Made by a program: the position numbers and the translations under genes. DNA of 32,683 bases from Candidatus Parcubacteria bacterium (lineage in GTDB: Bacteria; Patescibacteriota; Minisyncoccia; UBA6257; 2-01-FULL-56-20), in assembly GCA_027449645.1 (NCBI GenBank), contig DAIDLF010000030.1, positions 1 through 32,683 on the forward strand, written 5' to 3'. Position 1 is the first letter of the stretch. The number at the start of each line of letters is the position of its first letter. This document shows, piece by piece, positions 1,790 through 29,900 of the stretch. A model generated the notes under the pieces. The model had not been told where the DNA came from and did no database searches. It saw only the letters and a list, made by a program, of their open reading frames with translations.

Positions 1790-1803
1790 GGTGATGATAA
1801 AGA

Positions 1804-2358: not shown

Positions 2359-2389
2359 AGATGGCTTGTGCGGACGCAAATGTCTCCTC

Positions 2390-2419
2390 ATTATAGAGAA
2401 AATGGCATACAATAATCAA
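2390..2419 (-). promoter_or_regulatory. sigma70-like promoter of lepB (TTGATT-N18-TATAAT)
   Basis: Minus strand: TTGATT (2414-2419 complement), 18-nt spacer, TATAAT (2390-2395 complement). Confidence 0.6.
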
Positions 2420-2421
2420 GT

Positions 2422-2955
2422 ATGGACCAGACGCTCGTCATAGGACTCGGCAATCCCGACCCGGCGCTTGAGCGCACGTACCACAATGTGGGGGCGCTCG
2501 CCGTGGCATGGATCGCGGAACATCGCACGGCACACGGCGCCAGGCCGGAGTTCCGTCCCTACAAGAACCTCTTTGCCTCCTGCACCATCGAGGGGATCAT
2601 CCTCATGCGGCCGCTCGTCTACATGAACGAATCCGGCAGGGCGGTCAAAGAGGCATTGAAGGTGTTTTCCCTCGGCCCGGCGGATATCGCGGTCATCCAC
2701 GATGACAGCGACCTTGCGATCGGCAGCTGGAAACGGACCCTCAAGGGCCGCTCGGGAGGGCATAAGGGCATCCAATCGATCATCGATCACCTTGGCACCG
2801 ACGAATTCGCGCGCGTGAAGATCGGCATCCGCGAGCAGGAGGAATCCCCCAGGAAAAAAGCCGGCGAATTTGTGCTCTCCCCGGTGAAGGCCCGGGACCT
2901 GGATGCGCTTGAAGGCGTATTCAAAGCTATTGCGGAAAGCCTGAAACCCGTTTAG
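2422..2955 (+). CDS. pth: peptidyl-tRNA hydrolase
   Basis: VIGLGNPDPALERTYHNVG, MRPLVYMNESGRAV, VIHDDSDLAIG, SGGHKGIQSIIDHLGTDEFARVKIGI: Pth family motifs. Confidence 0.94.
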   Translation: MDQTLVIGLGNPDPALERTYHNVGALAVAWIAEHRTAHGARPEFRPYKNLFASCTIEGIILMRPLVYMNESGRAVKEALKVFSLGPADIAVIHDDSDLAIGSWKRTLKGRSGGHKGIQSIIDHLGTDEFARVKIGIREQEESPRKKAGEFVLSPVKARDLDALEGVFKAIAESLKPV

Positions 2956-4472
2956 AACTTCACCTCCGAGAGCGGAAGTGAAAGGGAGAACGTATATCCC
3001 CCGGCATTGTCCGGCTGGATATCCGCGAGCGAAAGGACCACGGCCCCGAAATGGCTGTCGCCCTGGAGCGCGTTTTTGAAAGCGACAATGCTCGCGGCCG
3101 ACCGCGCGTCCCCAGAGACCACGACCGGAGCGCCGGCGGCCTGGAAGGCAATATGGTTCACGGTGATGGCGTTCGCCGCGGCAAGCCCGTTCACGTCGGC
3201 GATGAGACGATACGAGGTGCTGATCTCGCCCTCTGCGGCGGCGATCAGCGAGACCTGCTGGTTGAATGCGGTAGATGACGCCTCGAGCGCGGCGGCCTCC
3301 TGCATGGCCGCGCCATGCTGGACGAATGCCGGCTGGGACTCGATGCTCTTTTTGGTGTCCACCAGGAAATAATCGGCGACCACAAGCACCGCGACCAGGA
3401 GAAGGAGTACGGCAGGGACAAGCACCTGCCACAACATAAGGAAGCCCACCATCTGCTCCTCATAGAACGTATCCATCGCGCTGGAGCCGGAAAGATTGAT
3501 CTCGCCGCCCTTCCCGCCCATGCCCCGCAGGCCGCAGCCGAACGCCACGAACCATTCGGGCAAGATCTCCTGCGTGCCCACCGCGAAGGTAAGCGGACTC
3601 ACCGGAAGCGCGAGCACATCCGCCACGGCGGCAGTAGCCTCGTCGCCAAACGCGGCGGCGGAAAGGACCACGCCGGACAGCGCGTCCGACCAGTGCTGGG
3701 CATAGAAATTCGCCACCTGGCGCAAACTCGATTCCAGCATCGCCCGGAAACGCTCCGCGGAAACCTCCCCTTTCTCGTCCGCAACCTCGGTCCACAGGTT
3801 GGCATATTCAAAATACAGCTTTCCGTTGCGGACAATAAGGAAATCGATGCCGATATTGTCGATATTGAGGAGGAGCAGGGGCTTCGCCGTATCAATGCCG
3901 GAGCCTTCTTCCCGCAGGATGCGCGCGAGCGCGAGCGCCCGGGATTCGACGCTCACCGTCACGAACCCGGCGGCATAGAGCGCCTGGGTCATCTCGTCCA
4001 CCGTGGCCTTGTCCACGAATGCCGCAGAGACCTCGGAGCGCAGATTGACCTCATCCCGCCCAAGGACCTGCCATCCGAAATAAGCCTGCTTGATATCCAC
4101 CGGCGACGCCATCTGGACATTGAGGTCGATGGCCTTGTCGAGGTCCTTCCCCTCCATCATCGGGAGCGTGAAGGTCTGGCTGTAAATGCTCACCGAAGAA
4201 AGCGACACCGCCACATTGATCATTTTTTTCTTGCGGCGCATCCCGGAAATCCGCATCCTGAGCTCTTCCAGGGCCGCAGCGAAGGCCGCCGCATCCTTGA
4301 TCCTCCCCTTCTCCAAAACCCCGGGCGCGAGGCGGACCGCCTCCATGCGCCATCCCTTTTTGTCGGCGCGCGCCATGCGCAATACCTGGTCGCTCACCTC
4401 AAGCCCTGCCGCGGTCGCGCGGATGCGGAGCAGGGAGAGAAACTTTTGAAAATATGCCTTAAGGATCGCCAT
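2952..4472 (-). CDS. PilM-PilN fusion-like (GspL-like) type IV pilus/type II secretion inner-membrane assembly protein
   Basis: N-terminal actin-like PilM-type region (VSDQVLRMARADKKGW, LLLLNIDNIGIDFLIVRNGKLYFEY, SLRQVANFYAQHW), then EINLSG and one TM helix (LMLWQVLVPAVLLLLVAVLVVADYFLV), then a PilN-like periplasmic region. ATG at 4472 overlaps the upstream stop (TAATG). Confidence 0.75.
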   Translation of the reverse strand: MAILKAYFQKFLSLLRIRATAAGLEVSDQVLRMARADKKGWRMEAVRLAPGVLEKGRIKDAAAFAAALEELRMRISGMRRKKKMINVAVSLSSVSIYSQTFTLPMMEGKDLDKAIDLNVQMASPVDIKQAYFGWQVLGRDEVNLRSEVSAAFVDKATVDEMTQALYAAGFVTVSVESRALALARILREEGSGIDTAKPLLLLNIDNIGIDFLIVRNGKLYFEYANLWTEVADEKGEVSAERFRAMLESSLRQVANFYAQHWSDALSGVVLSAAAFGDEATAAVADVLALPVSPLTFAVGTQEILPEWFVAFGCGLRGMGGKGGEINLSGSSAMDTFYEEQMVGFLMLWQVLVPAVLLLLVAVLVVADYFLVDTKKSIESQPAFVQHGAAMQEAAALEASSTAFNQQVSLIAAAEGEISTSYRLIADVNGLAAANAITVNHIAFQAAGAPVVVSGDARSAASIVAFKNALQGDSHFGAVVLSLADIQPDNAGGYTFSLSLPLSEVKF

Positions 4473-4897
4473 TATTGGATTTGGTTCCATGACACCACGT
4501 TTATCTGGCCCGTATTCGGATCCTCCGAAACCACGACCTGGATCTTCTTGGTATGCCCGAGGAACGTGGAGACCGAGACGATGGTCGCCTGGCCCGCCGA
4601 AGGCAGGCCTTGCGTCACCGTCACTGTGGCCGTCGCGCTCCCCGTGGATACCGTATAGGGGTTGCTCATGGTGCTGTTCTGCGGAAATTGCGCGTTGCGG
4701 TTCAGTTCAAGAAGGGCGTCCTCCACCCCTGCGGTCGCCGCCGACTGGGCGGTGAAGGCCGACGACGTCCCATAGCCCGTATCCGCAGAGGAAAGCGCGA
4801 AGAATGCGATCAAAAGCCCGATAATGGCGACAATGCCGCCGATGAAGAATACCAGCGTCAGAAACACCTGTCCTTGCCGGGTGATGCGTCGTGCCAC
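4472..4897 (-). CDS. PilX-like/prepilin-like pilus assembly membrane protein
   Basis: QGQVFLTLVFFIGGIVAIIGLLIAFFALSSADTGYG N-terminal helix, then AATAGVEDALLELNRN. GTG start proposed at 4897. Coupled to the downstream PilM-PilN gene by 1-nt overlap. Confidence 0.6.
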   Translation of the reverse strand: MARRITRQGQVFLTLVFFIGGIVAIIGLLIAFFALSSADTGYGTSSAFTAQSAATAGVEDALLELNRNAQFPQNSTMSNPYTVSTGSATATVTVTQGLPSAGQATIVSVSTFLGHTKKIQVVVSEDPNTGQINVVSWNQIQ

Positions 4898-4973
4898 TTT
4901 ATCAGTATACCTTTTTTCTGCCCTGCCCGCCAAAGACGGCGGCGGCAGGGCGACTGCAGGACGGCGGGAAAAA

Positions 4974-5002: not shown

Positions 5003-5107
5003 ATAGCCAGCAAGACCGCATTGATATTCAAGGCGAGCCGGACAAATGATCGTTCGACAGCCCACCATAAGAGGCCAGCTAAAGGGCGTTGGCCACGGAG
5101 AGCAACC

Positions 5108-6295: not shown

Positions 6296-6318
6296 GCCGC
6301 CCTGGGTCCGCAATCACA

Positions 6319-6358
6319 CAGCCCATCTTTCCGCAAGGAGAGATGGGCTGGATTTTTT
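6319..6358 (+). terminator. intrinsic terminator of the TolB-like lipoprotein gene
   Basis: CAGCCCATCTTTCC-GCAA-GGAGAGATGGGCTG: 14-bp stem with one T-G wobble and a GCAA (GNRA) loop, followed by GATTTTTTAT. Confidence 0.9.
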
Positions 6359-6382
6359 ATCCTATTTTCCGGCGCGGAAACC

Positions 6383-8344
6383 TCAGTTCACCGTGATACT
6401 CTGCGAGATCGTGCTGTTGGTGATCGCGCCGAGGGAGACGGAGTTCGGATCGGACACCGTCCATTTTTCCGTATAGGTGCCGGGCGAAACCGGTGCCGTC
6501 ATTGCGGGAAGTGCAAAGACGGCGGAACTGCCCGCAGCAATACTGCCTACGGTCTGATTGTAGGAGACGGAGCTATAAGGCAAGACAGGGCGAATAGTGC
6601 AACCACCAATAGAGACCGCATGTGCCACGGGGATCAAAGCAAAGAACTGGTGGGAAGGCGCCATGGCCGTACAGCCTGTGCCAATCTCGGTTGAATATCC
6701 GCCCCGATAGCTTGTGGTCTTGGTAACGCCTGCCACTACCAGAGGAATGGGCGTGCTCTCACTGAACGATCCCACGTGGGTCAGATAGATGCCATTATCC
6801 GTCACGTTCCCCGTGATGGTACAGGTCACCGTCGGCGGGATGTCACCGTAAACCCCGTCCCATACGCTATCGGATGTAGAGGGAGCGTCATACACTCCGT
6901 CGCCGTCAGTATCCGTATCGCACGTACCCGTGCCGGCTCCCGTCGCCGCGAAGCCGATACTGGTCGCAACCACGGGAACATTGCCGTTATTGACCGCGGT
7001 GATGGTCGCCCCGCTCACCGCAGACCCATGGGTGATGGACGAAGGGATGCCCGAGGAAGAAAGCGAAACCTGGCGGGTGGAAACGACCCCCGTGAGCGCC
7101 ACCCGGAATACATCAGGTGTGGCGCTGGGGCCGCCGCAAGTTTGTTCATAAGTATAGGAATATACCTCCGGGCCAGAGCCGCCGCCGATCGGCGAGAAGC
7201 TCTGTTTGGTGCAGGAAGTTTCATCAGGAAGATTATAATTACTGCCTACATTGCTCCCGCCGTTGTCTTCAGCGAGCTCTATGCCAAGCTGGAGATTGGT
7301 GAGCGCCTGGTCCCCCGCAGGCAATGCCTGGGTTGCCACAATGGATGCCGAAACGCTGGACAATCCATCAGCACCGCCGGGCCAGTTCCATCCCGACCAC
7401 GAGCCCGTTATATAAAAAGTGCCATTGGAAGGGTTGGTGTCGGTCCAGGTCCCGGAACCGGTTATCGCCGTACTCGCCCATGGCGAGGTCACACACGCCG
7501 TGCCCCGTCCGCCATAGAAGCACACCTGAACCTTGAAGTCCTGCGTCACCGGGCCGGATGCCGAAAGCGTCGCGTAGGCCCCGGTGCCGTCAAAGGTGAT
7601 GCCTGGCACGGGCGCCGCGATGGTCGGACGCACGTTTGCCACCGTCGTCTTGCTGATGCTCGCGCCGGAAGCCATGGCAAGCGCCCCACCGGTCCCGATG
7701 TTCAACTGATAGCCCGGACTGAACGAAAGGTTCACGTTGGGATCCACCGTGAGCGTCACGCCGTTCACGGCAATATTGCCGTTCTGTACCGTGGAATTCT
7801 GGCTCATCTCGCAGGCGCTGCCTCCTACGCTCGCCGTGGAGACCAGATACGTTCCTCCGCCGGCATCCTGCCATGGATTGCAGTACGGATCGGACCAGTC
7901 GAGCGATAGGGAGCTTTGATGCCCGCTCGCATCCTTCGCAGTGAATGCCGTCCCGTAATTCCCCTCGTGCGTGTCGCGCACCACCCACTGCCCGGTGAAC
8001 ACCTGCTGGCTCCCGCTCGAACTCGCCTGATCAAGCGCAAGCGTCACGGTGGTAGTCGCATGATCCGTCGCCGTCACCGCCTCCACGGAAGTCACCGTAT
8101 CGGGATCTTCCATGACCACGGTGAATTTTTGCGTATTGCCCGGCAAGACCTTCATCGGATCTATGGTGACGCTCGTGATGGCCGGCAAGGTTCCCGGAGC
8201 CTGGGAGATGCGATAGGTCTCAGGTCCGGATCCCGCCACGCGATTGCCGGAACGGGAGAGCAAGAACATCTCCACGCCGAGCAGTACGACGATGACCGCC
8301 ATGAAGGCGATGAAGATCGGGATGAAGTATTTTTTCATGAACAT
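6383..8344 (-). CDS. large membrane-anchored exported protein
   Basis: N-terminal TM anchor MFMKKYFIPIFIAFMAVIVVLLGVEMFLL, followed by a Ser/Thr/Gly-rich extracellular-type region. Contains DTDTDGDGVYD (TSP3/Ca-binding-like) and a C-terminal SPGTYTEKWTVSDPNSVSLGA segment. ATG is 2 nt downstream of the preceding stop. Confidence 0.8.
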   Translation of the reverse strand: MFMKKYFIPIFIAFMAVIVVLLGVEMFLLSRSGNRVAGSGPETYRISQAPGTLPAITSVTIDPMKVLPGNTQKFTVVMEDPDTVTSVEAVTATDHATTTVTLALDQASSSGSQQVFTGQWVVRDTHEGNYGTAFTAKDASGHQSSLSLDWSDPYCNPWQDAGGGTYLVSTASVGGSACEMSQNSTVQNGNIAVNGVTLTVDPNVNLSFSPGYQLNIGTGGALAMASGASISKTTVANVRPTIAAPVPGITFDGTGAYATLSASGPVTQDFKVQVCFYGGRGTACVTSPWASTAITGSGTWTDTNPSNGTFYITGSWSGWNWPGGADGLSSVSASIVATQALPAGDQALTNLQLGIELAEDNGGSNVGSNYNLPDETSCTKQSFSPIGGGSGPEVYSYTYEQTCGGPSATPDVFRVALTGVVSTRQVSLSSSGIPSSITHGSAVSGATITAVNNGNVPVVATSIGFAATGAGTGTCDTDTDGDGVYDAPSTSDSVWDGVYGDIPPTVTCTITGNVTDNGIYLTHVGSFSESTPIPLVVAGVTKTTSYRGGYSTEIGTGCTAMAPSHQFFALIPVAHAVSIGGCTIRPVLPYSSVSYNQTVGSIAAGSSAVFALPAMTAPVSPGTYTEKWTVSDPNSVSLGAITNSTISQSITVN

Positions 8345-8346
8345 GG

Positions 8347-10551
8347 TTAGGGGGTGATCAAAAGGCCTTTTGCCGACGGGTCGCCGTAATTTGTCCATTT
8401 GGCCGCATCGAAGCGGGGTGCGGTGAGGCGGTAGGAAACCTCATAGCCGCCAGCCGCGGCGCCTGCGGCCATGCTCCCCGGCGCGGAGGCACCGTAGATG
8501 GTGAGCGTCCCTGCGGCGGTATCCTTGCGGTACCACACGTTCCCGTCAAAGGAAGGCGTGAGGAGTACCGCGAGCTGGTCCATGGCAGACGGCATTTCCG
8601 TGGCTTTGGCAAAGAGCCAGAGATCGCTTCCCGTGGGCTCCTTCGCGAAGTTGATCGTCGCTTGGTAGGTGCCGTCCATCCCCTTCTGCAGCATGATCGT
8701 GCCTGCCGTCTCCTCTTTTACGCCCGTCATGCCCGAAAGGTACGTGGCATAGTTCGTACCGCCGATGGCATACACCGGGTCGAAGGTATTGGCCGTCACC
8801 TTGTTGGCGGTGACAGTGCCTTTAAGAGAGAGATTTCCGTTCACGTCCACCGACATGCTGGGCTGGGATCCATAGGCACCCCACGTAAAACCGCGACCGC
8901 TATCTTCGGCGTCCATGGTAAAGTGAATGGCATAGTCCTGAACGCTGCCATAGAAATAGGTACTGTTGTTGTCCATCCAAGTACGATAAGGAGTGTTGCC
9001 TCCCCAGTAATCCAATTCATTGTTAGGATTGAGGAATATCCCACTAGTAAAGGTCGTCGGTACATACACCGTCGCGGCGCTCGGAGTGATGTTCACGGTG
9101 TGCGCCGTATTATTATAGAAATCCGTGACGCCATCCGACGGCGAGAACATGCCCGTATCATATCCGCCATCGCCGACAAACGAATATCCTCCCGTTCCCC
9201 ACGTCCCCTCATTCGCAAGGATCTCGCCGTTCACCTGAAGCTTTGTTCCCGGGCTTGTGGTGCCGATGCCGACGTTGCCGCCCGTAGTAAATGCCATAGC
9301 CGGCGTCCCTTGAGTACCAGAAAAATTCCACGGAAAGATGCCGAAGGTATTGGAGTTTTGAACATATCCCATTTGCCATACATAAATCCCGGTTCGAATG
9401 AAGGCGATATCTGCCTTAGTGGTGTCAGCGGCGCGCGATAAATTAACCATTCCGTATGCCGGCCCATTATCAATGCCGGAGCCATCCTGAATCGATAAAG
9501 CCGGAGCGCTTGTATTTCCATCTATTTCCAGCTTTGCTCCCGGGCCCGATGTCCCGATCCCCACGTTGCCGCCATTATAATAGATGAGCCCAGATCCTGT
9601 CGTCCACTGGCCTGAGGCACCTGCCACCGCCGAATCTACATAGGCCTTCGTTGCCGCATTGGAAGCGGAAGTCGGAGTGCCCACGTTCACTACGCCGGTG
9701 AAATTGCCGGTGCCGGACACATCAAGGGTATAGCCGGGTGCGGAATTCCCGATGCCCACGTAGCCGTTAGTAGTACTGAACCACAACGGGAAATAATCGA
9801 CACCGTTTGCTGTTCTTGCAGCATTATAAGTGGTGAATCCAAAACCGTCACCCAGACCACCCAAAGCAACCACATTGCCACTTGCGGTTGTTTGCCGAAG
9901 AATGGGGGTATATGCACTGGCAGTCTGTGCACTTGCCGCAGTGATGCCATTTGTCCCTGTTTTTCCACTCAACCACGCCCCTCCTGGAGAGGATACATAA
10001 AGATTGCCGTCAATCGAGGTATTTCCATTTACTTCAAGCTTCTGGCCTGGGCTCGTTGTCCCGATGCCCACATTGCCAGCATCATTCACAATCATTGTAG
10101 AGGGGTAGGTATTGGTACCAAGAATATCTGCCGCCGCACCATGCAACGCCACTACATCCGAGACTGAACCCATGCCGTCGTTCTGAGTGCCTATGACCAA
10201 TGCACTATTTTCAGCCGATGTCCCCCAATAGGCATATGTGGTATTTTCGTCGCTATAGGTGATATAGCCGTAATCACTGCCATAGTTGCTGCGTGATGGA
10301 AAAATAATGGAGCTGGCTCCCCCGGAAGTGGGATGTTCCAATGTCAGATCGCCTGCAGTGGCGCTCGCGAGGTTGTCCGCATAAATATCCACCTTTCCAT
10401 TAGGCCCCGTCGTCCCAATGCCCACATTGCCGCTCGTGTTGATGATGCCATTCGGGAAATTCAGCGTGGTCACTGCAAAAACCTGCCCGGCGAACAACGT
10501 CGCAGCGAGCACGGCTACCATCGCCATCAAAGAGAACAATTTGCCTTTCAT
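8347..10551 (-). CDS. secreted tail-fibre-like repeat protein (adhesin candidate 1)
   Basis: Signal peptide MKGKLFSLMAMVAVLAATLFAGQVFA. Five GNVGIGTTSPxxxLxVNG-type repeats and GVVNVGTPTSASNAATKAYVDSAV. Confidence 0.85.
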   Translation of the reverse strand: MKGKLFSLMAMVAVLAATLFAGQVFAVTTLNFPNGIINTSGNVGIGTTGPNGKVDIYADNLASATAGDLTLEHPTSGGASSIIFPSRSNYGSDYGYITYSDENTTYAYWGTSAENSALVIGTQNDGMGSVSDVVALHGAAADILGTNTYPSTMIVNDAGNVGIGTTSPGQKLEVNGNTSIDGNLYVSSPGGAWLSGKTGTNGITAASAQTASAYTPILRQTTASGNVVALGGLGDGFGFTTYNAARTANGVDYFPLWFSTTNGYVGIGNSAPGYTLDVSGTGNFTGVVNVGTPTSASNAATKAYVDSAVAGASGQWTTGSGLIYYNGGNVGIGTSGPGAKLEIDGNTSAPALSIQDGSGIDNGPAYGMVNLSRAADTTKADIAFIRTGIYVWQMGYVQNSNTFGIFPWNFSGTQGTPAMAFTTGGNVGIGTTSPGTKLQVNGEILANEGTWGTGGYSFVGDGGYDTGMFSPSDGVTDFYNNTAHTVNITPSAATVYVPTTFTSGIFLNPNNELDYWGGNTPYRTWMDNNSTYFYGSVQDYAIHFTMDAEDSGRGFTWGAYGSQPSMSVDVNGNLSLKGTVTANKVTANTFDPVYAIGGTNYATYLSGMTGVKEETAGTIMLQKGMDGTYQATINFAKEPTGSDLWLFAKATEMPSAMDQLAVLLTPSFDGNVWYRKDTAAGTLTIYGASAPGSMAAGAAAGGYEVSYRLTAPRFDAAKWTNYGDPSAKGLLITP

Positions 10552-10565
10552 GGAAGCTTGACTTC

Positions 10566-10594
10566 ATTATAGAAAACTGCCCGCATAAGAGCAA
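10566..10594 (-). promoter_or_regulatory. promoter of tail-fibre-like gene 1 (TTGCTC-N17-TATAAT)
   Basis: Minus strand: TTGCTC complement 10589-10594, 17-nt spacer, TATAAT complement 10566-10571. ATG lies 14 nt past the -10. Confidence 0.7.
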
Positions 10595-10623
10595 CTAACG
10601 CCTGTGCACATGGCAACCGCCCG

Positions 10624-11862
10624 CTACAATCCCGCGCGTTGCACCCAGTAGGCAAGGCGCACCGTCCCCACCCAGGGCGTGGCATAGGGATCGGCGGAAT
10701 CGGAGACCAGCAAGGCCTTGTAGCGGAAGTCGCTGCCCGCCGTGACGAACGTGACCGGGCTGCCGGGATCCGCAGCGAACCAGGTGAGTCCCCCATTGTT
10801 GGAAAGGAAGTACTCCACGGTGCCGCTCGCATCCGCGCTCGTGATCTCGCCCATCGTGACATTCCCGCTCCACTGATTGAGGTCGGACGACACCCATTGC
10901 GCCGGGCCGGATTTGAATCCCTGGTCGGTGAAAAGATACGATCCGGCATTGCTCTTTACATAGATCTCGTGCGGCGCCGGACCGGGCGCGGCGCGGAGCA
11001 GGGAGGCGCCGGAGAACGCCGTCTGGGTGTAATCGATCACCGCCCCGCGCTGGATCTTGATGAGCCGCGGGCGGGCGCTTCCGGCTCCCGAGAATATCCA
11101 CCAAGCCCCGTCCTGCGCGAAGATCACCGGGTCCACGCCGCGGGAACCGAAGGTGTCGCCCGCAAAGGCGCGCGAGCCGAAGCGCGGCGAATAGTCCGCG
11201 ATGAGGCCCACCCCGCCGCCGTTGCCCGTGGGCCCCATCTCCAGCACGCGGCTTTCGTATGCCGCGTACACCACGAGCGTCCGCCCGGTCGCCACGTCAT
11301 AGCCGAAACGCAAAACGCCGGGATAGGTGGATGTCACCACAAGGCCCGGGAATGCGGGAATGGTGGCAGTGTAAGTGCCGTCCGCCTGCTCCGTCACGCC
11401 TGCCCCCGCGGCAGCGGGGCCTCCCGCCGAGGACGAAGGCGGGGTAAATGCCGCCGACGTGGACGTCACCGCGAACTCGGGCACGAACGAAATGGCGGTT
11501 GCCACATAATCCTCATAGACGGTCGTATCATGGGCATCCTCAAACCCCGTACCGGAAAAAAGTTCGGTGTAGGTGGCGGAGGAAAGCGACGAGGTCGCCG
11601 CAAGCGGCAACGTCTGCGCGGCCTGCGGTGTGGAAAGATTGCTCTTGGGGATGGCGGACATCACCGTGGAGGTCGCCGTCTCGCTCGGCACTGCGGCGAT
11701 GGGCGCCTGCCGCAAAAGCCACGCAAGCACTCCCTCCGCCATGCCCGATGAATAATACAAAACGGCGCGGATGCCAAGGATGAGCAAGAGGCCGACGGCG
11801 ACCCCGCCCAGCAGGGCGAGTAGCATGCGTGCTCTTTTCTCTTCTTTGGACAGCCGCGCCAT
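10624..11862 (-). CDS. membrane-anchored exported protein of unknown function
   Basis: N-terminal anchor RMLLALLGGVAVGLLLILGIRAVLYY, Ser/Thr linker, C-terminal YFLSNNGGLTWFAADPGSPVTFVTAGSDFRYKALL module typical of extracellular beta domains. Confidence 0.8.
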   Translation of the reverse strand: MARLSKEEKRARMLLALLGGVAVGLLLILGIRAVLYYSSGMAEGVLAWLLRQAPIAAVPSETATSTVMSAIPKSNLSTPQAAQTLPLAATSSLSSATYTELFSGTGFEDAHDTTVYEDYVATAISFVPEFAVTSTSAAFTPPSSSAGGPAAAGAGVTEQADGTYTATIPAFPGLVVTSTYPGVLRFGYDVATGRTLVVYAAYESRVLEMGPTGNGGGVGLIADYSPRFGSRAFAGDTFGSRGVDPVIFAQDGAWWIFSGAGSARPRLIKIQRGAVIDYTQTAFSGASLLRAAPGPAPHEIYVKSNAGSYLFTDQGFKSGPAQWVSSDLNQWSGNVTMGEITSADASGTVEYFLSNNGGLTWFAADPGSPVTFVTAGSDFRYKALLVSDSADPYATPWVGTVRLAYWVQRAGL

Positions 11863-11873
11863 AAATGTGGCTT

Positions 11874-12464
11874 CTACTTCACGGTCATCACTCCTGCTTC
11901 CCCGGACTGGCCGGGAATATTGCTGTAGAAATCATACGTCCCTGCCTTCGTGGGCGCATTGAACGTGATCGCCCGGGTCTCCCCCGGACCGACTCCCACG
12001 GCCACTGCCGAGAGCGAAGGATCCTTGAAGGCGAACACGTGCGAATAAGCGTCGCCGGAGGTCACGGAGATCGTGACCGGCGCGCCCGCGGACACCGTGA
12101 ACGCGTTCGGCGTGAAGCCGCCCGTCACGGAAACCGTGAGTTTGATCGCGCTCGCAGGCACCGAGGAAGGATTCGCGATCGGCGCCGATTGCTGAGGCGC
12201 AGTCGGGGCTCCCGGCGCCACGTTGTTCTGCGCAGCCTGGCCCGTAGGCGCCACGACGACGCCGCTCGAGGCGATGGCGCTCGTGCCGGTCGCCGCCACC
12301 ACGCCCGAAGGCGTCACGGTGCCCAAATCGGTCTGGGTTCCCACCGGCTGGCTTGCGACGTTCTTGACCGACGAATTCGGCTGTGTGCCAGTGAATACGA
12401 AATACCCCGCCACCACGATCACTACCACGACCACTCCGATGATAATCTCTTTGTTCTTGTCCAT
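11874..12464 (-). CDS. membrane-anchored cupredoxin-like protein (ligand-depleted)
   Basis: N-terminal TM helix, linker, then VSVTGGFTPNAFTVSAGAPVTISVTSGDAYSHVFAF...GTYDFYSNIPGQSGEAGVMTV. Confidence 0.75.
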   Translation of the reverse strand: MDKNKEIIIGVVVVVIVVAGYFVFTGTQPNSSVKNVASQPVGTQTDLGTVTPSGVVAATGTSAIASSGVVVAPTGQAAQNNVAPGAPTAPQQSAPIANPSSVPASAIKLTVSVTGGFTPNAFTVSAGAPVTISVTSGDAYSHVFAFKDPSLSAVAVGVGPGETRAITFNAPTKAGTYDFYSNIPGQSGEAGVMTVK

Positions 12465-12501
12465 ATATCTGGGTAAAGGAATTTTTCTCTCGACCTTTCT
12501 T

Positions 12502-14895
12502 TTACTCTTTCACCGGCAATACGAAGCCCGGTGTCCTCCCCTGCTCTGCGGCCGTGGTCGGCCACTTCTGCCAATCGAACCGCTTGCCGGTGAGCCGGAA
12601 CGAGAACTGTGCCGGGGCGTTGCCGTGGAATGTGAGCGTGGATCCGTCAATCGTATAGTAGATCTCCGCGAACTGGCCGTACGGCGTCGCCACGGCGTTC
12701 ACGGTATCCTTGCTGAAGTCCACGGTCTGGTACCATACCCAGAGATCCGATCCGTGCGCGAGCTGGGGGAAATTGACGGCGTACTCGTAATCCGATCCTT
12801 GCTTGACGAGCGTGCCGTTCCCCGTCACTTCCTCGTTCACGCCGACCATCGTAGGCGCGAAGGTCTCATAATCCGTGCCGCCGATCCGGTACAGCGGGTC
12901 GATGGTGGTGACGCCGAGGGTGCCGACCCCGGTGATGTTATAGCCGTTCATGTTGAGCCCTCCCTGCGCCGCGCCGGAGATGTTCCAATTGCCCGTCACC
13001 GTGAGCGTGGAGAAGACGCCGGCCCCGCCGCCGCCCACTGCACTGTCCACATAGCTCTTTGTCGCCGCCATGTTCCCCGCCGTCGGCGTACCGACGACGA
13101 CCGGCTGGGTGAAGCTTGCCGTGCCGGACACGGTGAGTCCTGCGAAAGTCGGGCTGTCCGTGGTGCGCACGTACTGGTTCATATTGGAAGGATACGGATC
13201 TGCACCGGTATTGAGCAGGCGGTTCCACGCGGTCCATCCTCCCGTGCCTCCCGTGGCGCTCGCGCGGCTCCTGAACCACATGCCGGTGGTGTTAGGCTTG
13301 ATGACGATCTGCGATTGCCACATATTGGTGGCGCTATAAGGATAGCTCAGGTTGATGAAGTGATACCACGTCGTGCCGCTCGGACCGTCTGAGGCGTTGT
13401 CCATGCCCGCCGAGTTGCCGAGCGTGCCCAAGGTATCAAAGGTATAGCTGGTATTCGGATAAGTATCTACATAGTTCGCCGATCCGGAACTGATCGCCGA
13501 TACCGCGGAGTCCACGTAGGATTTCGTTGCGGCGTTGGAGGCGGAAGTCGGCGTGCCTACGTTCACCACCCCAGTAAAATTGCCAGTACCCTGAACATCA
13601 AGCTTGTAAGCGGGAGCTGTCGTACCGATGCCGACACTGCCGCCACTCACTGCCAACACTGCTCCGTTCGAGGCCGTGGAAATCGTGAAAAGATTGTTCC
13701 CTGCATTTTGGAGACGCACATTAAAATCTTGGGCCGCGCCAGTCCCATAATGGAAATCTAAATATGGCACGCCTGCGCTTATTGGATTTGCAATCGTATT
13801 CGTACCGCCAAGCTCAATAGAACCTCCTTGATCGGCGTTTAATTGGTCGTTTGCCCCATTCCAACTAAGGCTCCCATCCACTTTCGCAGCCCCATTCACT
13901 TCAAGCACCGCACTCGGGCTCGTCGTCCCGATCCCCACATTGCCGCCATTATAATAGATGGCGGTGCCGCTGGAGGTCCACTGGCCAAGCGACGCCCAGC
14001 TCGTCTGGCACACGCCGCCGAGACAGAGCCCCGTGGAGCTCACATTGCCTGCCACTTCCAACTTTTGCCCCGGGCTTGCCACCCCCACGCCGAAGTTGCC
14101 GTTATTGAGGATGGTCGCCACATTCGCCGCCCCTGCATATGAGCTTGCACTGCCGCTCGGGCCGGTGCCGAAATAGATATTGCCGCTCTGCAGATACATA
14201 TAACTGAGCGCCGCCGCCTGGTCGCGGGTAATGCCATTGCCGCCGGTGTTCCGGGTGTAGGCATTGTTCAAGATGAAGGTGCCGCCATAGAAATTATCGA
14301 AATAGCTGTTGGGCGATCCCCCGCCGTCCTGCTTGATCTCCGACCAGTTGCTGCCGCCGACTTCAAGCGTAGTACCGGGGTTGGACACTCCAATCCCCAC
14401 GTTGCCGGCGAAGCTGTAATTCCCTCCTCCGGTATTGGAGCCGAACTGGCCCGACGAGACGTTGCCGGCGCTTACCGTCCCGGTAAGCGTGCTCGCCACG
14501 AACGTGCCGCCCACGGTGAGATTCCCGCCGATCACCGTATTTCCCGCAGAGACCGTGCTCGTGGAGATGGATACCGAACCGTCGCTCCGCAGGAGGAAGA
14601 TCGGCGTCTTGTTGTTGGCCCAGAACTGCGCGGCGTACGTGGTATTGTCGCTCGAGGCGCCCACCACGAGCAGCTTCGTTCCGGACACCGTCGTGGAAGT
14701 GCCGACGCTCACGTTATTGGAGGCATCGCTCCCGATCGCGCCATAGCCGTTCGGCGGCGCTTGGAGCGGTCCCGTGAAGGCCCGGGCAACGAAAGGTCCG
14801 CCGAACATCGCGAATGCAAAAACCATTCCGGAAAGCATGGCTCCGGCTACGATGGCAACGATGCCGCGCTTAGCAAGGAATGGTTTTTGCCTCAT
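12502..14895 (-). CDS. secreted tail-fibre-like repeat protein (adhesin candidate 2)
   Basis: Signal/anchor KRGIVAIVAGAMLSGMVFAFAMFGGPFVARAF. Several NVGIGTTxPxxxLxVxG repeats, two GTPTxxxxAATKSYVDSAV modules, C-terminal region paralogous to that of the 8347-10551 protein. Confidence 0.85.
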   Translation of the reverse strand: MRQKPFLAKRGIVAIVAGAMLSGMVFAFAMFGGPFVARAFTGPLQAPPNGYGAIGSDASNNVSVGTSTTVSGTKLLVVGASSDNTTYAAQFWANNKTPIFLLRSDGSVSISTSTVSAGNTVIGGNLTVGGTFVASTLTGTVSAGNVSSGQFGSNTGGGNYSFAGNVGIGVSNPGTTLEVGGSNWSEIKQDGGGSPNSYFDNFYGGTFILNNAYTRNTGGNGITRDQAAALSYMYLQSGNIYFGTGPSGSASSYAGAANVATILNNGNFGVGVASPGQKLEVAGNVSSTGLCLGGVCQTSWASLGQWTSSGTAIYYNGGNVGIGTTSPSAVLEVNGAAKVDGSLSWNGANDQLNADQGGSIELGGTNTIANPISAGVPYLDFHYGTGAAQDFNVRLQNAGNNLFTISTASNGAVLAVSGGSVGIGTTAPAYKLDVQGTGNFTGVVNVGTPTSASNAATKSYVDSAVSAISSGSANYVDTYPNTSYTFDTLGTLGNSAGMDNASDGPSGTTWYHFINLSYPYSATNMWQSQIVIKPNTTGMWFRSRASATGGTGGWTAWNRLLNTGADPYPSNMNQYVRTTDSPTFAGLTVSGTASFTQPVVVGTPTAGNMAATKSYVDSAVGGGGAGVFSTLTVTGNWNISGAAQGGLNMNGYNITGVGTLGVTTIDPLYRIGGTDYETFAPTMVGVNEEVTGNGTLVKQGSDYEYAVNFPQLAHGSDLWVWYQTVDFSKDTVNAVATPYGQFAEIYYTIDGSTLTFHGNAPAQFSFRLTGKRFDWQKWPTTAAEQGRTPGFVLPVKE

Positions 14896-14908
14896 TACCC
14901 GGAAGGTA

Positions 14909-15394
14909 TTAGTGGGAAGGAGTCGTGGAGCTCGCGGAAGAAGGGCCGGTGGCCGACGGGACACCCTGCTGGGCCTCGGCTGCCGCGGCGCTCTGCTGGG
15001 CTGCGGTTGCCGCGGCAGGATTCGCGATCAGCTGGGCAATGCTCGAAGTGGCAGAGAGGCGGGTCCAGAAGATGATCTGCTGGGAGTTGAAGTAGACGTC
15101 GCCCGACGGACCCCACGTCACCTGGCTGAACGGATACACACCGACGGTCGGATTGCCCTTGCTGTCCGTGCCGCGCTGGAGGAACCAGGCGTCTTCCATA
15201 TGCGGCGCCGGCGACCAGTCAAGCTTGCCAAAATAGATGTCGCCCGTGGAAAGATATACTGCCGAGTACGGCGAGATCGCCGGCTGGGATGCTCCCCCGG
15301 TGATCAGGCTGACCCCCGCCCACACGCCGATCGCGATGGCGAGCAATACGATGACTACAATAAGCGTAACAATGAGACCTTTCGAAACTTTCAT
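14909..15394 (-). CDS. membrane-anchored YSAVYLSTGDIYFGKL-type protein
   Basis: N-terminal TM helix GLIVTLIVVIVLLAIAIGVWAGVSLI, internally similar segments YLSTGDIYFGKLDW and GPSGDVYFNSQQIIFW, low-complexity Ala/Gln/Ser tail. Confidence 0.7.
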   Translation of the reverse strand: MKVSKGLIVTLIVVIVLLAIAIGVWAGVSLITGGASQPAISPYSAVYLSTGDIYFGKLDWSPAPHMEDAWFLQRGTDSKGNPTVGVYPFSQVTWGPSGDVYFNSQQIIFWTRLSATSSIAQLIANPAAATAAQQSAAAAEAQQGVPSATGPSSASSTTPSH

Positions 15395-15421
15395 GATGCT
15401 TTTTGGATTTGGTTTTATTTT

Positions 15422-15979
15422 TTATTTCGCGGCGACGATGAGGTGTCCCACAGGGCCTTTCGAGGGGCCGCCGCAGGATGCACAGTAAAAAGTGAAATCT
15501 CCGGTGGTGAGTGCCTGGAACTGGATGCGCTGGGTCTTCCCTTTCAGGATGGTCGCATTGAATCCGTAATCGGGCTGGGTGAATCCATAGTTCGCATCCA
15601 CTGCCGTGATCTCAAGGTCCACCGTATCGCCCTGGTGCACCGCAACGATGTCCGGTGAGTAGGCGCCATTCGCCACGTTGATGGCAAAACTGCGATAGCT
15701 CACGTTGCCCGACACATCGCCCGCGCCCTGCACCACAGGCACCGCAAGGCCTGCCGGCGTGCTCGTAGCTCCCTTGTCCGGCACCACCACATTCGCAGGC
15801 ACCGCACTGCGCGTGGTCGAGGTCGCCGCACCGCTCACTGCCTGCGGAGTTCCGTTGTTGCCCGCATTGCCCGACCCCGGAGCGGAACCGCTCCTGGTCC
15901 ACCACCATCCCGCCGCGATTGCCGCAGCAATGACCACAATCACCCCCGCCGCGATCGACGCTTTTTTAGCCATGCTCAT
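15422..15979 (-). CDS. membrane-anchored cupredoxin-like protein (CxxC variant)
   Basis: N-terminal TM helix, linker, C-terminal VHQGDTVDLEITAVDANYGFTQPDYGFNATILKGKTQRIQFQALTTGDFTFYCASCGGPSKGPVGHLIV. Confidence 0.8.
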   Translation of the reverse strand: MSMAKKASIAAGVIVVIAAAIAAGWWWTRSGSAPGSGNAGNNGTPQAVSGAATSTTRSAVPANVVVPDKGATSTPAGLAVPVVQGAGDVSGNVSYRSFAINVANGAYSPDIVAVHQGDTVDLEITAVDANYGFTQPDYGFNATILKGKTQRIQFQALTTGDFTFYCASCGGPSKGPVGHLIVAAK

Positions 15980-16058
15980 AGAGGTATTGTATCACTTCCC
16001 TGCATCCCGCGGCATCAGTTATCCACAGGAACCCGGGAAATCCGCGGCAGACAAGGAA

Positions 16059-16874
16059 TCAGTACGTGACCACCTGGTGCCATCCGTACGTGCCTGAGGC
16101 ATTGGTGGTGCAAAGATAGAGCAGTCCGGCACCGCTGCCGCCGGGAGAGAACCAGAGCTCGCCGAGCGCATTGCTCCCCGACGTGCACGAAGGCTGGCTG
16201 GCCGATGTCGGATTGAGGCGGACGCCGCCGTTCACGTCCAAAGGCTGGGATGGTGCCGACTGATTGATGCCGACATTCGCGCCGCTCGTATAGATGACGC
16301 CATTGATCGGGCTCCACAGGTTGCTGCTGTTCCCCAGCTGCTGGGTGGAGGCCGAAGGATAGAGTCCCGTGTCGAACGTCGCCGCGGACACATGGACCAC
16401 CGACGACTGGAACAGCTGGCTGAACACCTGCGTGGCATTCAAAGAATTGTATTTCATATTGAACGAGACGTTCACCACGTCGTGTCCCGGCGGATTTGCC
16501 TGGCGCGCGAACGCGAGTCCCGAAACAAAGACGCGGCCGGAGGTCAGCGGCTGCGGCTGTCCGCTCCCCTGCTGGATATACACGACCCCGGTGGAAGAGG
16601 CATAAATAAGCGTGGGATCCGCCGTGGAACTCGGCATGCGGAGCGTGAGCTCGGCAGGAAGCGTGCTGGTCGCGATGAGGCTCGCGGTGCCTACGTAGTA
16701 TTGCACCTTCTGCAGAAGCGCCTGGCTTTCCTGCTGGACCACCGATGCGGAGGACTGCTGGACGCCGATATTCGTAACCGCCACCAGCATGCCGATGAAG
16801 GCCACGATGATGACCGTAAAAATGGAAATGGAAACGAGAAGCTCTATAAGCGTGAAGCCGCGCGAGTGGTGCAT
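16059..16874 (-). CDS. type IV prepilin-like protein with C-terminal tail-fibre-like domain
   Basis: MHHSRGFTLIELLVSISIFTVIIVAFIGMLVAV (class III signal), then GANVGINQSAPSQPLDVNGGVRL and SCTSGSNALGELWFSPGGSGAGLLYLCTTNASGTYGWHQVV. Start at 16874 is supported by a TGCTACAAT box 7 nt upstream. Confidence 0.88.
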   Translation of the reverse strand: MHHSRGFTLIELLVSISIFTVIIVAFIGMLVAVTNIGVQQSSASVVQQESQALLQKVQYYVGTASLIATSTLPAELTLRMPSSTADPTLIYASSTGVVYIQQGSGQPQPLTSGRVFVSGLAFARQANPPGHDVVNVSFNMKYNSLNATQVFSQLFQSSVVHVSAATFDTGLYPSASTQQLGNSSNLWSPINGVIYTSGANVGINQSAPSQPLDVNGGVRLNPTSASQPSCTSGSNALGELWFSPGGSGAGLLYLCTTNASGTYGWHQVVTY

Positions 16875-16899
16875 CATCTCCATTGTAGCACGCAGGCGC

Positions 16900-17835
16900 C
16901 TACGGGCTCCAGTTCACGATGACGTCGTCGACCCTCGGACTCACGGTCTGCGCCTTGTTGGTGGTGAGCGTGATGCGGTAGCGGAAATAGCGGCCGTCGA
17001 GCGAGGAATAGTCAGTGAGCGGCAACGGGATCCCGGGACCGAGCGGCGTGTAGACCGTCCCGTAGTTCCATGGGCCGCTCGAGCTGTTGCTCACGGCGAA
17101 CTGGAATGTCACCGCCGTATTGGAAAGCCCGTTCAGGCTCCCCTTCCACATAAGGGAGTTGATCTGCGCGCCGTTCACGACGCCGGTATCAAAGGTTTGC
17201 GAATCCAGCGTGCCGGTGGTCGAGGTGGCGAACCACGTGGTCGCCACTTCCCACGGCGACCCGCAGATGGCGTCCTGCGGATTGTCGCAGTTGAAATCGA
17301 TCCATCCGATCTCGTCGTTCCATGCCCATCCTTGGAAATTGCCGTACCCGTCAACGAACACGCCGCAATCCGGTGCGGTGTAATAGGTCGCCTCATACGT
17401 GGCGCAGAGCGAGGTCACCGTAGAGGAAGGATTCGCCGCCGCGTTGCCCCAAAAAAAGGAGATCCATCCGATCTCGTCGTTCCACGCATAGCCTCCGAGG
17501 TTGCCGAAGCCGTCGTTCGTCACCTTGTAATCGCTTCTCCCGCAGATGCTCACGCCCGAAGGATTGCTGCTGTCGCAGTTCAGGGAAATGGGCCCCGCGG
17601 AGGAGCTCGCATAGCCCTCTACCACTGAGGCGGCCACATTCACATTCCCCGCGCCGCCAGGATTGAAATCGATCCATCCGATCTCGTCGTTCCATGCCCA
17701 ATGCGAGGTCGCCGACGAACTGACGTTCGTGGCCGCAAACGCATGCGGCGCGGAAGCCAGCGCAACGCCGAAGCACGCCGCGAAGACGGCGGCGGCAAAC
17801 GCGAGAGATTTGAAATGAGAGGGAAGGTGCGACAT
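16900..17835 (-). CDS. secreted protein with three AWNDEIGWI repeats
   Basis: Signal peptide SLAFAAAVFAACFGVALASAPHAFA. Repeats WAWNDEIGWIDFN, YAWNDEIGWISFF, WAWNDEIGWIDFN, each in a roughly 60-aa unit. C-terminal beta-rich domain. Confidence 0.85.
   Translation of the reverse strand: MSHLPSHFKSLAFAAAVFAACFGVALASAPHAFAATNVSSSATSHWAWNDEIGWIDFNPGGAGNVNVAASVVEGYASSSAGPISLNCDSSNPSGVSICGRSDYKVTNDGFGNLGGYAWNDEIGWISFFWGNAAANPSSTVTSLCATYEATYYTAPDCGVFVDGYGNFQGWAWNDEIGWIDFNCDNPQDAICGSPWEVATTWFATSTTGTLDSQTFDTGVVNGAQINSLMWKGSLNGLSNTAVTFQFAVSNSSSGPWNYGTVYTPLGPGIPLPLTDYSSLDGRYFRYRITLTTNKAQTVSPRVDDVIVNWSP
17291..17700 (-). repeat. three direct repeats encoding AWNDEIGWI, two of them identical over 38 bp
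   Basis: ttgaaatcgatccatccgatctcgtcgttccatgccca at 17291-17328 and 17663-17700; gatccatccgatctcgtcgttcca again at 17461-17484. Confidence 0.95.
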
Positions 17836-17860
17836 GAAATAGAGAATGAAATAAGGAGGT

Positions 17861-18478
17861 TCAGTATCCCGGTATGGCGACATAGATGGACCCGGTGGTC
17901 GTGGCATAGTCGATATTGGAGGAAGACCCGAATTGGCTCGTCACCGTGGTGGCCACGCTTGAAGTGGCGCCGCCTGCCCAGTTCGTCTGGTCGAATGCGG
18001 CATTGTTGTTGCGGGTGATGAACAGGGAAATCGTGCCCGGCTTCCCTCCTGCCCAATTATACACCGCCGTCACAAGCTTGGTGGAAGGGTCGTAGGACGG
18101 CGTGACCGTGGTCGTCGGATTCCCCGAACTGTCGCGATACGCGTCGGAAACGTAAAAATAGCGGGTGTAGGTGCTCGTGCCGACCGAAATGGACTCTATG
18201 CCGGACGTGGCGACATAGGGCGTCGAAGAGGTGATGAGGTAATACTGGTAGGACGTCCCGGTGGCGAGCGAAGCGATGTTCTGCCAGCCGGCCTCGGACC
18301 ACACTAGCACATTGTTGAGGAGGCTCTGTGCGTTCGTGGTGGCCGTCTGGATCTTCGCGGCCTGGCCGTTCGTCGTGAGGGACGGCGCAATGATCATGGC
18401 CGCGCCCACCATGAAAATGGCGCCGATGGAGATGGCAATGAGGAGCTCGACAAAGGACTGTCCGCCGCGGGAATCCAT
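17861..18478 (-). CDS. type IV prepilin-like protein (non-canonical GQSFVELLIAI motif)
   Basis: MDSRGGQSFVELLIAISIGAIFMVGAAMIIAPSL N-terminus, pseudopilin-like body. Confidence 0.78.
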   Translation of the reverse strand: MDSRGGQSFVELLIAISIGAIFMVGAAMIIAPSLTTNGQAAKIQTATTNAQSLLNNVLVWSEAGWQNIASLATGTSYQYYLITSSTPYVATSGIESISVGTSTYTRYFYVSDAYRDSSGNPTTTVTPSYDPSTKLVTAVYNWAGGKPGTISLFITRNNNAAFDQTNWAGGATSSVATTVTSQFGSSSNIDYATTTGSIYVAIPGY

Positions 18479-18523
18479 GAATATAGTGTATCACAAAAGC
18501 GGCCCCGTTCCCGCCGCCGCGAA

Positions 18524-18991
18524 TCAGTAACTCACCGTCCCCGATGACGCAATGGAGATGGTGGAGGAAAATGCCGCGCTCTCCTTCGGCATATAGAGGC
18601 CGATCGAGGTGGAGACGGAGGCCGTACCGGAAAGCGGCGAGAAAATAATGTCCTGCGTGGCGCCCGCGGCGAGCGTGGAGGTTTGATAGGCCACGGTGGC
18701 AGGCAGCTGATACTGCCCGACCACGGTAGAGGTGCTATAGGCCGTGGTGAACAGCGCATAAAACGGCGGGGTGTTCGTGGAGTTCGCGAAATGCACGCCC
18801 CAGGCGGCGTCCTGCTCTTCCTGCATGGAATCGCTCTGGGCGCGATGCAACAGGGTCACCATCTGCTGGACGGTGGAGGTGAGATCGGTATTGTTTTTCC
18901 GTCCTCCGAGCGTCGCGAACATCACGGCGGCGATCGCGAGCATGAGACCGATCACAATGACCAATTCCACGAGCGTGAATCCCCTTTTCAT
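18524..18991 (-). CDS. type IV prepilin / GspH-like pseudopilin
   Basis: MKRGFTLVELVIVIGLMLAIAAVMFATLGGRKN class III signal. ATG at 18991 overlaps the gspF-like stop (TGATG). Confidence 0.88.
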   Translation of the reverse strand: MKRGFTLVELVIVIGLMLAIAAVMFATLGGRKNNTDLTSTVQQMVTLLHRAQSDSMQEEQDAAWGVHFANSTNTPPFYALFTTAYSTSTVVGQYQLPATVAYQTSTLAAGATQDIIFSPLSGTASVSTSIGLYMPKESAAFSSTISIASSGTVSY

Positions 18992-20199
18992 CAGAATTGC
19001 GTGGTGAGCTGGTAGATGGGAACGATGATGGAAAGCGCGATCACGCCGACCATGACGCCCATCACGAGCAGCATCGCCGGCTCAAGGAGCGACACGAGGG
19101 CCTTGATGTTCCCGTCAACGTTCGCCTGATAGAAATCGGCCAGCGTGGCGAGCACTTCGTCGAGATGGCCGGCGCGCTCCGAGATGGCGATGAGGTTGGT
19201 GACCATTTTGGGAAATGCCGTCTCCCGCCGGAAGGCCTCGCCGATGGTGAGCCCCTTGCTCAGCCCCTCGTTCGCGACGCGCAGGAGGGCGTCGCGGTAT
19301 TCCCCTACGCCCACCGTGTCCGCGGCGACCGTGATGGTCTGCACGATCGGCAGGCCGGCGCGCATGAGCAGGCTCATCGTGGATGCCATGCGCTGGATGG
19401 CCAGCTCGTGATAGGTCGTCCTGATCACAGGAAGGCTGGTAAGTACGCGGTCAAACAGTTTCTTTCCCGTCTCCGTCTTGATCACGACCCAGACAAGCGC
19501 GGCAATCCCGATGAGGAGAGAAGGAAGAATGATATAGATGTTCGCACCAAGAAAAAGGCCCACCGTGAAGACAATTTGCGAGAACCACGGCGGTTTGATG
19601 CCGCTCTGCGTAAAGACTCCCGCCACCTTTGGCAGGGCGAAGGTGACCAGGAAGGTGAGGATTGCCGCGGCAATGACAAGCAGGATGATCGGGTAGATCA
19701 TCGCGGATCTGATCTTGCTCTGGATTTCGGCATCCTTTTCAAGCGATACGCTGAGGTCCTCGAAGGTCTTCTGGAGGTTGCCGGACGACTCGGCGGCCTT
19801 GATCAGGCTGATCATCGTCGGCGAGAACACGCGCGGATAGTGGGCGAACGCCTCGTAGAACGGCTTGCCTTTGCCCAGGTTGTCGCGCACCTCCAGGAGG
19901 AAGTTGCGCACCGCCGGCTTGTCGAAGTCGTCGAGAAGGATATTGACAGCGGAAAGCAGGTCCGTGCCCACGCGGAGCATGAGCGCGAGATATTTGGTGA
20001 GGAAAACCTTGTCGGACGTGTTGATGCCGCCGCCGAAATAGCCCCGGATGCCAAGGTCCACCTTTTCGATCGGCTTCACCGAAACGGGGCTCAATTGCTT
20101 GCTCCCCAAAAAGCGCAGTACGTCTGACAAGGCGTCCGCCTCGTAGTCGCCTTCCGTCATCGCTCCCTGCACGTCGGCCGCAACATAATGGAACAGCAT
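18991..20199 (-). CDS. type II secretion/type IV pilus platform protein (GspF/PilC family)
   Basis: Duplicated GspF domain: FLTKYLALMLRVGTDLLSAVNIL...SGNLQKTFEDLS and ASTMSLLMRAGLPIVQTITVAADTVG...ISERAGHLDEVLATLADFY. Three TM helices. Confidence 0.93.
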   Translation of the reverse strand: MLFHYVAADVQGAMTEGDYEADALSDVLRFLGSKQLSPVSVKPIEKVDLGIRGYFGGGINTSDKVFLTKYLALMLRVGTDLLSAVNILLDDFDKPAVRNFLLEVRDNLGKGKPFYEAFAHYPRVFSPTMISLIKAAESSGNLQKTFEDLSVSLEKDAEIQSKIRSAMIYPIILLVIAAAILTFLVTFALPKVAGVFTQSGIKPPWFSQIVFTVGLFLGANIYIILPSLLIGIAALVWVVIKTETGKKLFDRVLTSLPVIRTTYHELAIQRMASTMSLLMRAGLPIVQTITVAADTVGVGEYRDALLRVANEGLSKGLTIGEAFRRETAFPKMVTNLIAISERAGHLDEVLATLADFYQANVDGNIKALVSLLEPAMLLVMGVMVGVIALSIIVPIYQLTTQF

Positions 20200-20262
20200 G
20201 ACTTCATCATACCATAAGGGAACGATGTTTCCGACGCATGGGGCATATGCTACACTGGGGAT

Positions 20263-29860: not shown

Positions 29861-29900
29861 GGTTTTTTTATGATAAATCATTTCGCCGTTTCGCACCATA

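Follow-up and report, generated by a model that had tools for sequence, protein, structure and literature searches.

A candidate second type IV pilus locus with a modular prepilin and MAT-like fibre proteins in a Parcubacteria genome

The second type IV pilus (T4P-2) of TM7x (Saccharibacteria) is a thin pilus lacking a retraction ATPase (pilT), which contributes to host binding (PMC12206443). The mosaic adhesive trimer (MAT) proteins of Bdellovibrio form trimeric fibres whose adhesive tips are exchangeable and bind to the surface of prey, and have a conserved beta-rich domain of ~130 aa right behind the signal peptide (PMC10769870). Modular type IV pilins, such as PilB and PilC of S. sanguinis and those with an N_methyl-S74 architecture, are proposed to be located at the pilus tip, and in the type IVb pilus of enterotoxigenic Escherichia coli the trimeric minor pilin CofB, predicted to be located at the tip, serves as adapter for the secreted protein CofJ (both described in PMC8179133). 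Here we describe a twelve-gene unit, probably encoding part of a second type IV pilus with MAT-like fibres, in a 32,683 nt contig (C30, below called the window) of a Candidatus Parcubacteria genome (665.6 kb in 40 contigs, 85% complete). The source is a tiny, host-dependent-looking member of the Parcubacteria group, and the named relatives of this genome are Liptonbacteria, Wolfebacteria, Jorgensenbacteria and other Parcubacteria.

The unit runs from position 20199 to 6383, on the minus strand throughout and with -1 to 79 nt between neighbouring genes. All twelve genes were present on one strand in the order originally described, and the proposed membrane or exported nature of their products agreed with the presence of an N-terminal hydrophobic or transmembrane segment in 12/12. 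In order of transcription, the genes are:

18991..20199, minus strand: pilC2, inner-membrane platform protein (GspF/PilC; Pfam T2SSF 1e-52, NCBIfam GspF 1e-84)
18524..18991, minus strand: pilinA, prepilin with class III signal RGFTLVELVIV (N_methyl 20.9 bits, cut-off 21.2)
17861..18478, minus strand: pilinB, prepilin (N_methyl 5e-5)
16900..17835, minus strand: AWNDE, exported AWNDEIGWI-repeat protein with its own Sec-type signal (three 54-nt DNA repeats; start corrected to ~17835)
16059..16883, minus strand: pilinTF, modular prepilin with a pilin module, one MAT-type capping repeat and a two-cysteine end (N_methyl 8e-8; motif VGINQSAPSQPL)
15422..15979, minus strand: membrane-anchored cupredoxin-fold protein with CxxCGGP (Pfam Cupredoxin_1 5e-10)
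14909..15394, minus strand: YLSTGD protein, N-terminal transmembrane helix and an Sm-fold domain predicted to lie outside the membrane (AlphaFold2 (AF2) model, predicted local distance difference test score (pLDDT) 87.6; Foldseek match 3by7, Sm/LSm-like, E 5.5e-4, prob 1.00)
12502..14895, minus strand: TF1, secreted MAT-like fibre with capping repeats (3 strict and 1 loose motifs) and a C-terminal tip domain (start corrected to ~14895)
11874..12464, minus strand: second anchored cupredoxin, with 2/4 copper ligands lost (Pfam 1.4e-9)
10624..11862, minus strand: anchored protein with a beta-rich exported part (one transmembrane segment near the N-terminus; no meaningful Pfam, PHROG or NCBIfam match)
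8347..10551, minus strand: TF2, secreted MAT-like fibre (5 capping motifs; PHROG tail fibre 5e-12)
6383..8338, minus strand: anchBig, large anchored protein with Ig-like stretches (one N-terminal transmembrane segment; start corrected to ~8338)

Domain searches confirmed the identities originally given to the GspF/PilC protein, both cupredoxins and the prepilins, with N_methyl above the cut-off for pilinB and pilinTF and just under it for pilinA. The curated cut-offs of Pfam and NCBIfam were reached by none of AWNDE, YLSTGD, TF1, the anchored beta-rich protein, TF2 and anchBig.

The capping repeat VGIGxxxPxxxL was found in 1, 3 and 5 copies in pilinTF, TF1 and TF2, respectively, versus 0.002-0.008 copies in shuffled sequence. 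A repeat profile built from ten capping segments of the window alone was compared with all PDB chains and gave five significant matches, to 8ond (3e-13), 8oml (1e-8), 8ojn/8onb/8onc (4.5e-6), 8on4 (4e-5) and 8ol4/8onf (2e-4), with the next match having an E-value of 0.41. Entry 8ond is named Bd2133, and the other entries carry the label 'cell wall surface anchor family protein'; the latter are taken to come from the Bdellovibrio MAT study, since the MAT proteins bear the same annotation there and the entry codes fall in one series. The repeats thus have the beta-helix capping loops that mark the MAT family, their significant PDB matches being only to Bdellovibrio fibre structures, and Bd2133 (8ond) was also the best PDB match of the whole TF2 protein (E 0.019). 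One TF2 capping motif lies ~20 residues or less from its signal, and TF1 and TF2 share their C-terminal tip domain (1e-19). The S74 chaperone domain (PF13884) had no match in the window genome, so that its fibres are of the non-S74 kind, and S74 autoproteolysis was rejected for this genome. The original description of these proteins as phage-tail-fibre-like stood in part: TF2 does match PHROG tail-fibre families, but the Bdellovibrio MAT proteins are closer than any phage protein, both in the PDB comparison and in that TF2 had 0 matches in 50,697 phage records. MAT-like proteins in Parcubacteria may have been listed before, and another MAT-like fibre gene is located outside the cluster (G000:C21:10169-10840).

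Pilin and fibre are joined in a locus from another family (L111; relatives' loci are given as L numbers), where one polypeptide of 1,932 aa combines a pilin module (1e-62) with 13 capping motifs, and has a tip that is homologous to those of TF1 (2e-22) and TF2 (4e-23). This single polypeptide gives direct evidence for a fibre of this type working on a pilin, and at the level of sequence the pilin/fibre fusions argue strongly for a joint function of the parts, which supports the original proposal that the pilus fibre presents or works with fibre-like adhesins. Since the parts fused in L111 are split over pilinTF, TF1 and TF2 in the window, the analogy suggests that a secreted fibre may dock on a pilin stub.

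The pilinTF protein and its orthologs have the architecture of modular type IV pilins, in which the pilin module is N-terminal and a non-pilin module comes after it. It was rightly called a prepilin, but the 'tail-fibre domain' ascribed to it consists of one capping repeat and the two-cysteine end. The AF2 model of pilinTF gave a weak Foldseek match with the S. sanguinis modular minor pilin PilB (7ba2, prob 0.91, rank 23), the best matches of the fold search being avidin-like beta barrels (E 0.017). A profile search with pilinTF detected its pilin module at E<=1e-30 in ~150/245 genomes of the order (our count from the match table), in frames of <200 to ~2,040 aa. For 20 pilinTF-type loci, picked mostly by length, the proteins were read out, and their C-terminal parts contained capping motifs (at most 19) or domains of the S74, phage collar, LamG, kelch or F5/8-C type. 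The C-terminal part of two prepilins (L120 and L055:559-2019) resembles a formylglycine-generating/sulfatase-modifying (C-type-lectin-like) domain with the end GFRCAR, for which Pfam gave no confirmation in L120. The AWNDE protein likewise corresponds to a module, as it forms the C-terminal part of prepilin B in relatives: pilinB and the AWNDE repeats are a single protein in L041, L083, L086 and L089, and L084 has a frame of matching size.

Five Wolfebacteria-type loci have a compact operon on one strand, with genes for a prepilin, PilB2, PilC2, pilinA, pilinB with AWNDE, YLSTGD, PilX and PilM/N; one of these (L086) is from a complete chromosome, while the PilX position of L084 holds a protein under the blast cut-off and pilC2 of L083 is split over two frames. 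The window operon has this Wolfebacteria gene order with two insertions, of pilinTF and the CxxC cupredoxin 5′ of YLSTGD, and of TF1 to anchBig 3′ of YLSTGD. The window locus is thus the compact operon expanded by a cassette of modular prepilin, CxxC cupredoxin, YLSTGD and secreted fibre. Within 23 loci of relatives in the family, which were selected for holding a YLSTGD gene (the presence of which was not counted as evidence), pilinTF is followed by the CxxC cupredoxin in 19, and in most the YLSTGD gene comes next and a TF-like fibre is encoded downstream. Homologs of anchBig close the cassette in L046, L055, L060 and L061, and in the same genus (L049, L055) pilinB-AWNDE-TF2-anchBig are retained together with a convergent propeller gene. 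The gene order is therefore kept across genera and families, on which the original prediction had depended, and chance is excluded by this conservation combined with capping motif numbers far above those of shuffled sequence. Gene content, gene order, fusions and family relations are direct observations. In seven loci (L039, L040, L044, L050, L054, L060 and L061), and not in the window, a membrane GT2-like glycosyltransferase (~500-600 aa, QxxRW-type) is encoded directly 5′ of the pilinTF cassette; possible roles of this enzyme are glycosylation of the pilin or synthesis of a surface polysaccharide.

The genome encodes the components required for a type IV pilus, with a PilC platform, the extension ATPase PilB, class III prepilins and a prepilin peptidase. 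A type IV pilus operon on contig C31 encodes PilM, N, O, B, T and C together with a pilin, further prepilins and the prepilin peptidase (gene names beyond the Pfam matches are our reading of order and sequence). Contig C10 has PilO/P-like genes, another PilB and prepilins, two of which have long C-terminal parts that are LamG-like. The PilC of the window shares only 28% identity with that of C31, and PilB2 of L041, whose gene lies immediately 5′ of pilC2, shares 71% identity with the PilB of C10 versus 39% with that of C31. The window PilC and the PilB of C10 are therefore most likely parts of one second system. The pilC2 orthologs are located directly 3′ of pilB2 in L041 and in Wolfebacteria, and the position of pilinA after pilC2 is kept in Wolfebacteria L083/L084/L086/L089/L091. 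Two further window genes, located past a convergent gene, are part of this pilus system in relatives:

4472..4933, minus strand: PilX-like pilus component (3′ of the YLSTGD gene in Wolfebacteria, 3′ of pilC2 in L041)
2952..4490, minus strand: PilM/PilN-like fusion (weak PilN Pfam matches; neighbour of the PilX, pilC2 or YLSTGD gene in relatives)

PilB, PilC and PilM/N are encoded together in Wolfebacteria and L041 (pilB2-pilC2-pilX-pilMN), and are split over C10 and C30 in the window genome. The hisS-lepB-pth genes (window 461-2955) beside PilM/N-PilX are kept there across families, including L041 and L096. The expectation that parts missing from the window are encoded elsewhere came true for PilB/PilT and the prepilin peptidase (C31) and for PilB2 (C10), placing pilus ATPase and peptidase in the same genome as the original prediction demanded, but not for a secretin (PF00263), which was not found by a search of the 85% complete genome. 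The idea of a pilus-like assembly was upheld by the PilC, prepilins, ATPases and peptidase, while the label 'pseudopilus' was not, since a second type IV pilus fits better.

The cassette also encodes partner proteins. In the CxxC cupredoxin the two cysteines are kept and the other copper ligands are lost across the orthologous group, with Tyr at the His ligand position throughout. The second cupredoxin lacks the Cys and the second His, and so is indeed ligand-poor as originally described, whereas its homolog beside L111 retains H, C, H and M. Both window proteins thus lack the cupredoxin copper site (His/Cys/His/Met or Cys2His2Met), and a copper-binding role was rejected because of the missing ligands. 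A disulphide role for the CxxC cupredoxin is plausible from its sequence, as it has kept its two cysteines and the neighbouring pilinTF has two conserved cysteines (233 and 258) near its C-terminus. A cupredoxin gene is located immediately after the pilin-fibre gene in L110, L111 and L115; the one directly behind the 1,932-aa fusion (L111:25-573, minus strand) is of the second cupredoxin type and has intact type 1 copper ligands.

The YLSTGD family was detected in 168/245 genomes of the order. The AF2 model of the window protein has the five strands of an Sm/LSm fold, and its top Foldseek matches are Sm/LSm proteins, a likeness of fold which does not imply RNA binding. A search of the family sequence against PDB gave nothing significant, the Sm likeness coming from fold comparison only. 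The positive-inside rule predicts that the Sm-fold domain lies outside the membrane. A second, divergent membrane-anchored YLSTGD-type (Sm-fold) protein is encoded in the same genome (G000:C28:24434-24769).

In our view this locus probably codes for the displayed half of the genome's second type IV pilus, which would be distinct from the PilT-bearing C31 pilus and have a modular pilin that presents or docks MAT-like fibres. PilC2, PilM/N2 and PilX from the window would assemble the filament together with the cognate ATPase PilB2 (C10), and the C31 prepilin peptidase would process the prepilins. PilinTF may be located at or near the pilus tip, bearing its MAT-type capping repeat, and TF1 and TF2 would be exported MAT-like fibres, presumably trimers, which dock on the pilinTF stub or stand beside it. 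Their tip domains would carry out recognition, possibly of a partner cell, and the system might serve attachment of an episymbiont to its host cell. The CxxC cupredoxin and Sm-fold YLSTGD, anchored on the outward side of the membrane, may assist in folding or oxidation of the adhesins or in guiding the fibre. A bolder and rather doubtful extension is an order-wide partner-recognition organelle, comprising a secretin-less type IV pilus in which a ring of anchored extracytoplasmic Sm-fold YLSTGD subunits guides or gates the fibre, with a pilus-borne MAT fibre and with folding served by a copper-less CxxC cupredoxin. Searches of an open-access library found no publication that links tail fibres with pili in Patescibacteria.

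Several observations weigh against a second pilus that carries the fibres. In the window genome, TF1 and TF2 lack a pilin helix and have Sec signals that look cleavable, leaving their physical link to the pilus putative; the model confidence of pilinTF is modest (pLDDT 76.9) and its Foldseek matches are weak; and the matches to the pilinTF profile weaker than 1e-30 are probably other prepilins. In most family relatives pilC2 is not adjacent to the pilinTF cassette, which could thus serve either pilus, and its putative assignment to the second rather than the C31 pilus follows gene order alone. A surface adhesin operon could therefore merely lie beside the pilus genes, with TF1, TF2 and the anchored proteins decorating the cell surface as MAT proteins do on Bdellovibrio, where such fibres are not reported as pilus-borne (PMC10769870), and with the pilins being independent. 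The Sec-type signals of TF1 and TF2 are ordinary and the cassette is away from pilC2 in many relatives, but the cassette begins with a prepilin in 19/23 loci and the L111 fibre is covalently part of a pilin, and we regard such an operon as unlikely.

It is still less probable that the locus encodes a type II secretion-like pseudopilus which pushes out TF1, TF2 and other proteins rather than being displayed. The window PilC does score best with GspF, and the exported proteins are in the same gene unit; against this, PilM/N and PilX accompany the locus, and orthologous modular prepilins with large adhesive modules are ill-suited to a short piston. Type II secretion was rejected because its outer-membrane secretin GspD is missing from what the search of the incomplete genome found. 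A prophage remnant with phage-derived tail-fibre genes outside host biology, as the PHROG tail-fibre matches could suggest, is very improbable and was rejected, given that TF2 is unmatched in phage records, no phage gene was seen nearby in the window and the same place is kept across genera.

The twelve-gene unit is closed by a terminator-like site, on the far side of which a convergent gene encodes a propeller-like lipoprotein:

6319..6350: intrinsic-terminator-like site (14-pair stem followed by TTTTTT on the plus strand), separating the two convergent units

The lipoprotein gene (window 5021-6295, plus strand, lipobox LAAC) has the same place in the same-genus loci L049 and L055, and its product invites comparison with PilX2, the propeller pilin of TM7x. 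Switching of the shufflon type, as with PilV, was rejected, as inverted repeats were absent from 6300-20300 at the settings used. Elsewhere in the window, 29021-29899 (minus strand) has a marginal match to F420-0:gamma-glutamyl ligase (24.9 versus a cut-off of 25 bits), which would be unusual in so reduced a genome.

The locus provides a concrete, order-wide candidate for partner-cell recognition in Parcubacteria, in which one pilin module is combined with exchangeable fibre, lectin-like and propeller modules and accompanied by two partner proteins of unsuspected fold. Host recognition becomes testable via recombinant tip domains, and three separate literatures are joined, on the second pili of Saccharibacteria, modular pilins and the MAT fibres of predators. 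As in TM7x T4P-2, a second PilB2/PilC2/PilM2N2 set without its own PilT occurs beside a PilT-bearing first pilus, and prepilins carry large C-terminal modules, with the host-binding role having been shown in TM7x (PMC12206443); however, the adhesin candidate of TM7x is the beta-propeller pilin PilX2, whereas the Parcubacteria modules are MAT-like fibres with cupredoxin and Sm-fold partners. The VGIGxxxPxxxL-type capping repeats, the export and the mosaic C-terminal tips with or without S74 are shared with Bdellovibrio MAT proteins (PMC10769870), but in Parcubacteria a prepilin also bears grafted fibre repeats and the tip domain is different. The combination of a pilin module with a grafted adhesive module is like that of the S. 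sanguinis modular pilins, from which the Parcubacteria proteins differ by having one orthologous pilin module, order-wide module swapping and a fixed partner cassette. Finally, a tip-type minor pilin serving as adapter for a secreted protein would parallel CofB and CofJ, an arrangement which in the Parcubacteria locus is suggested by the genes alone.

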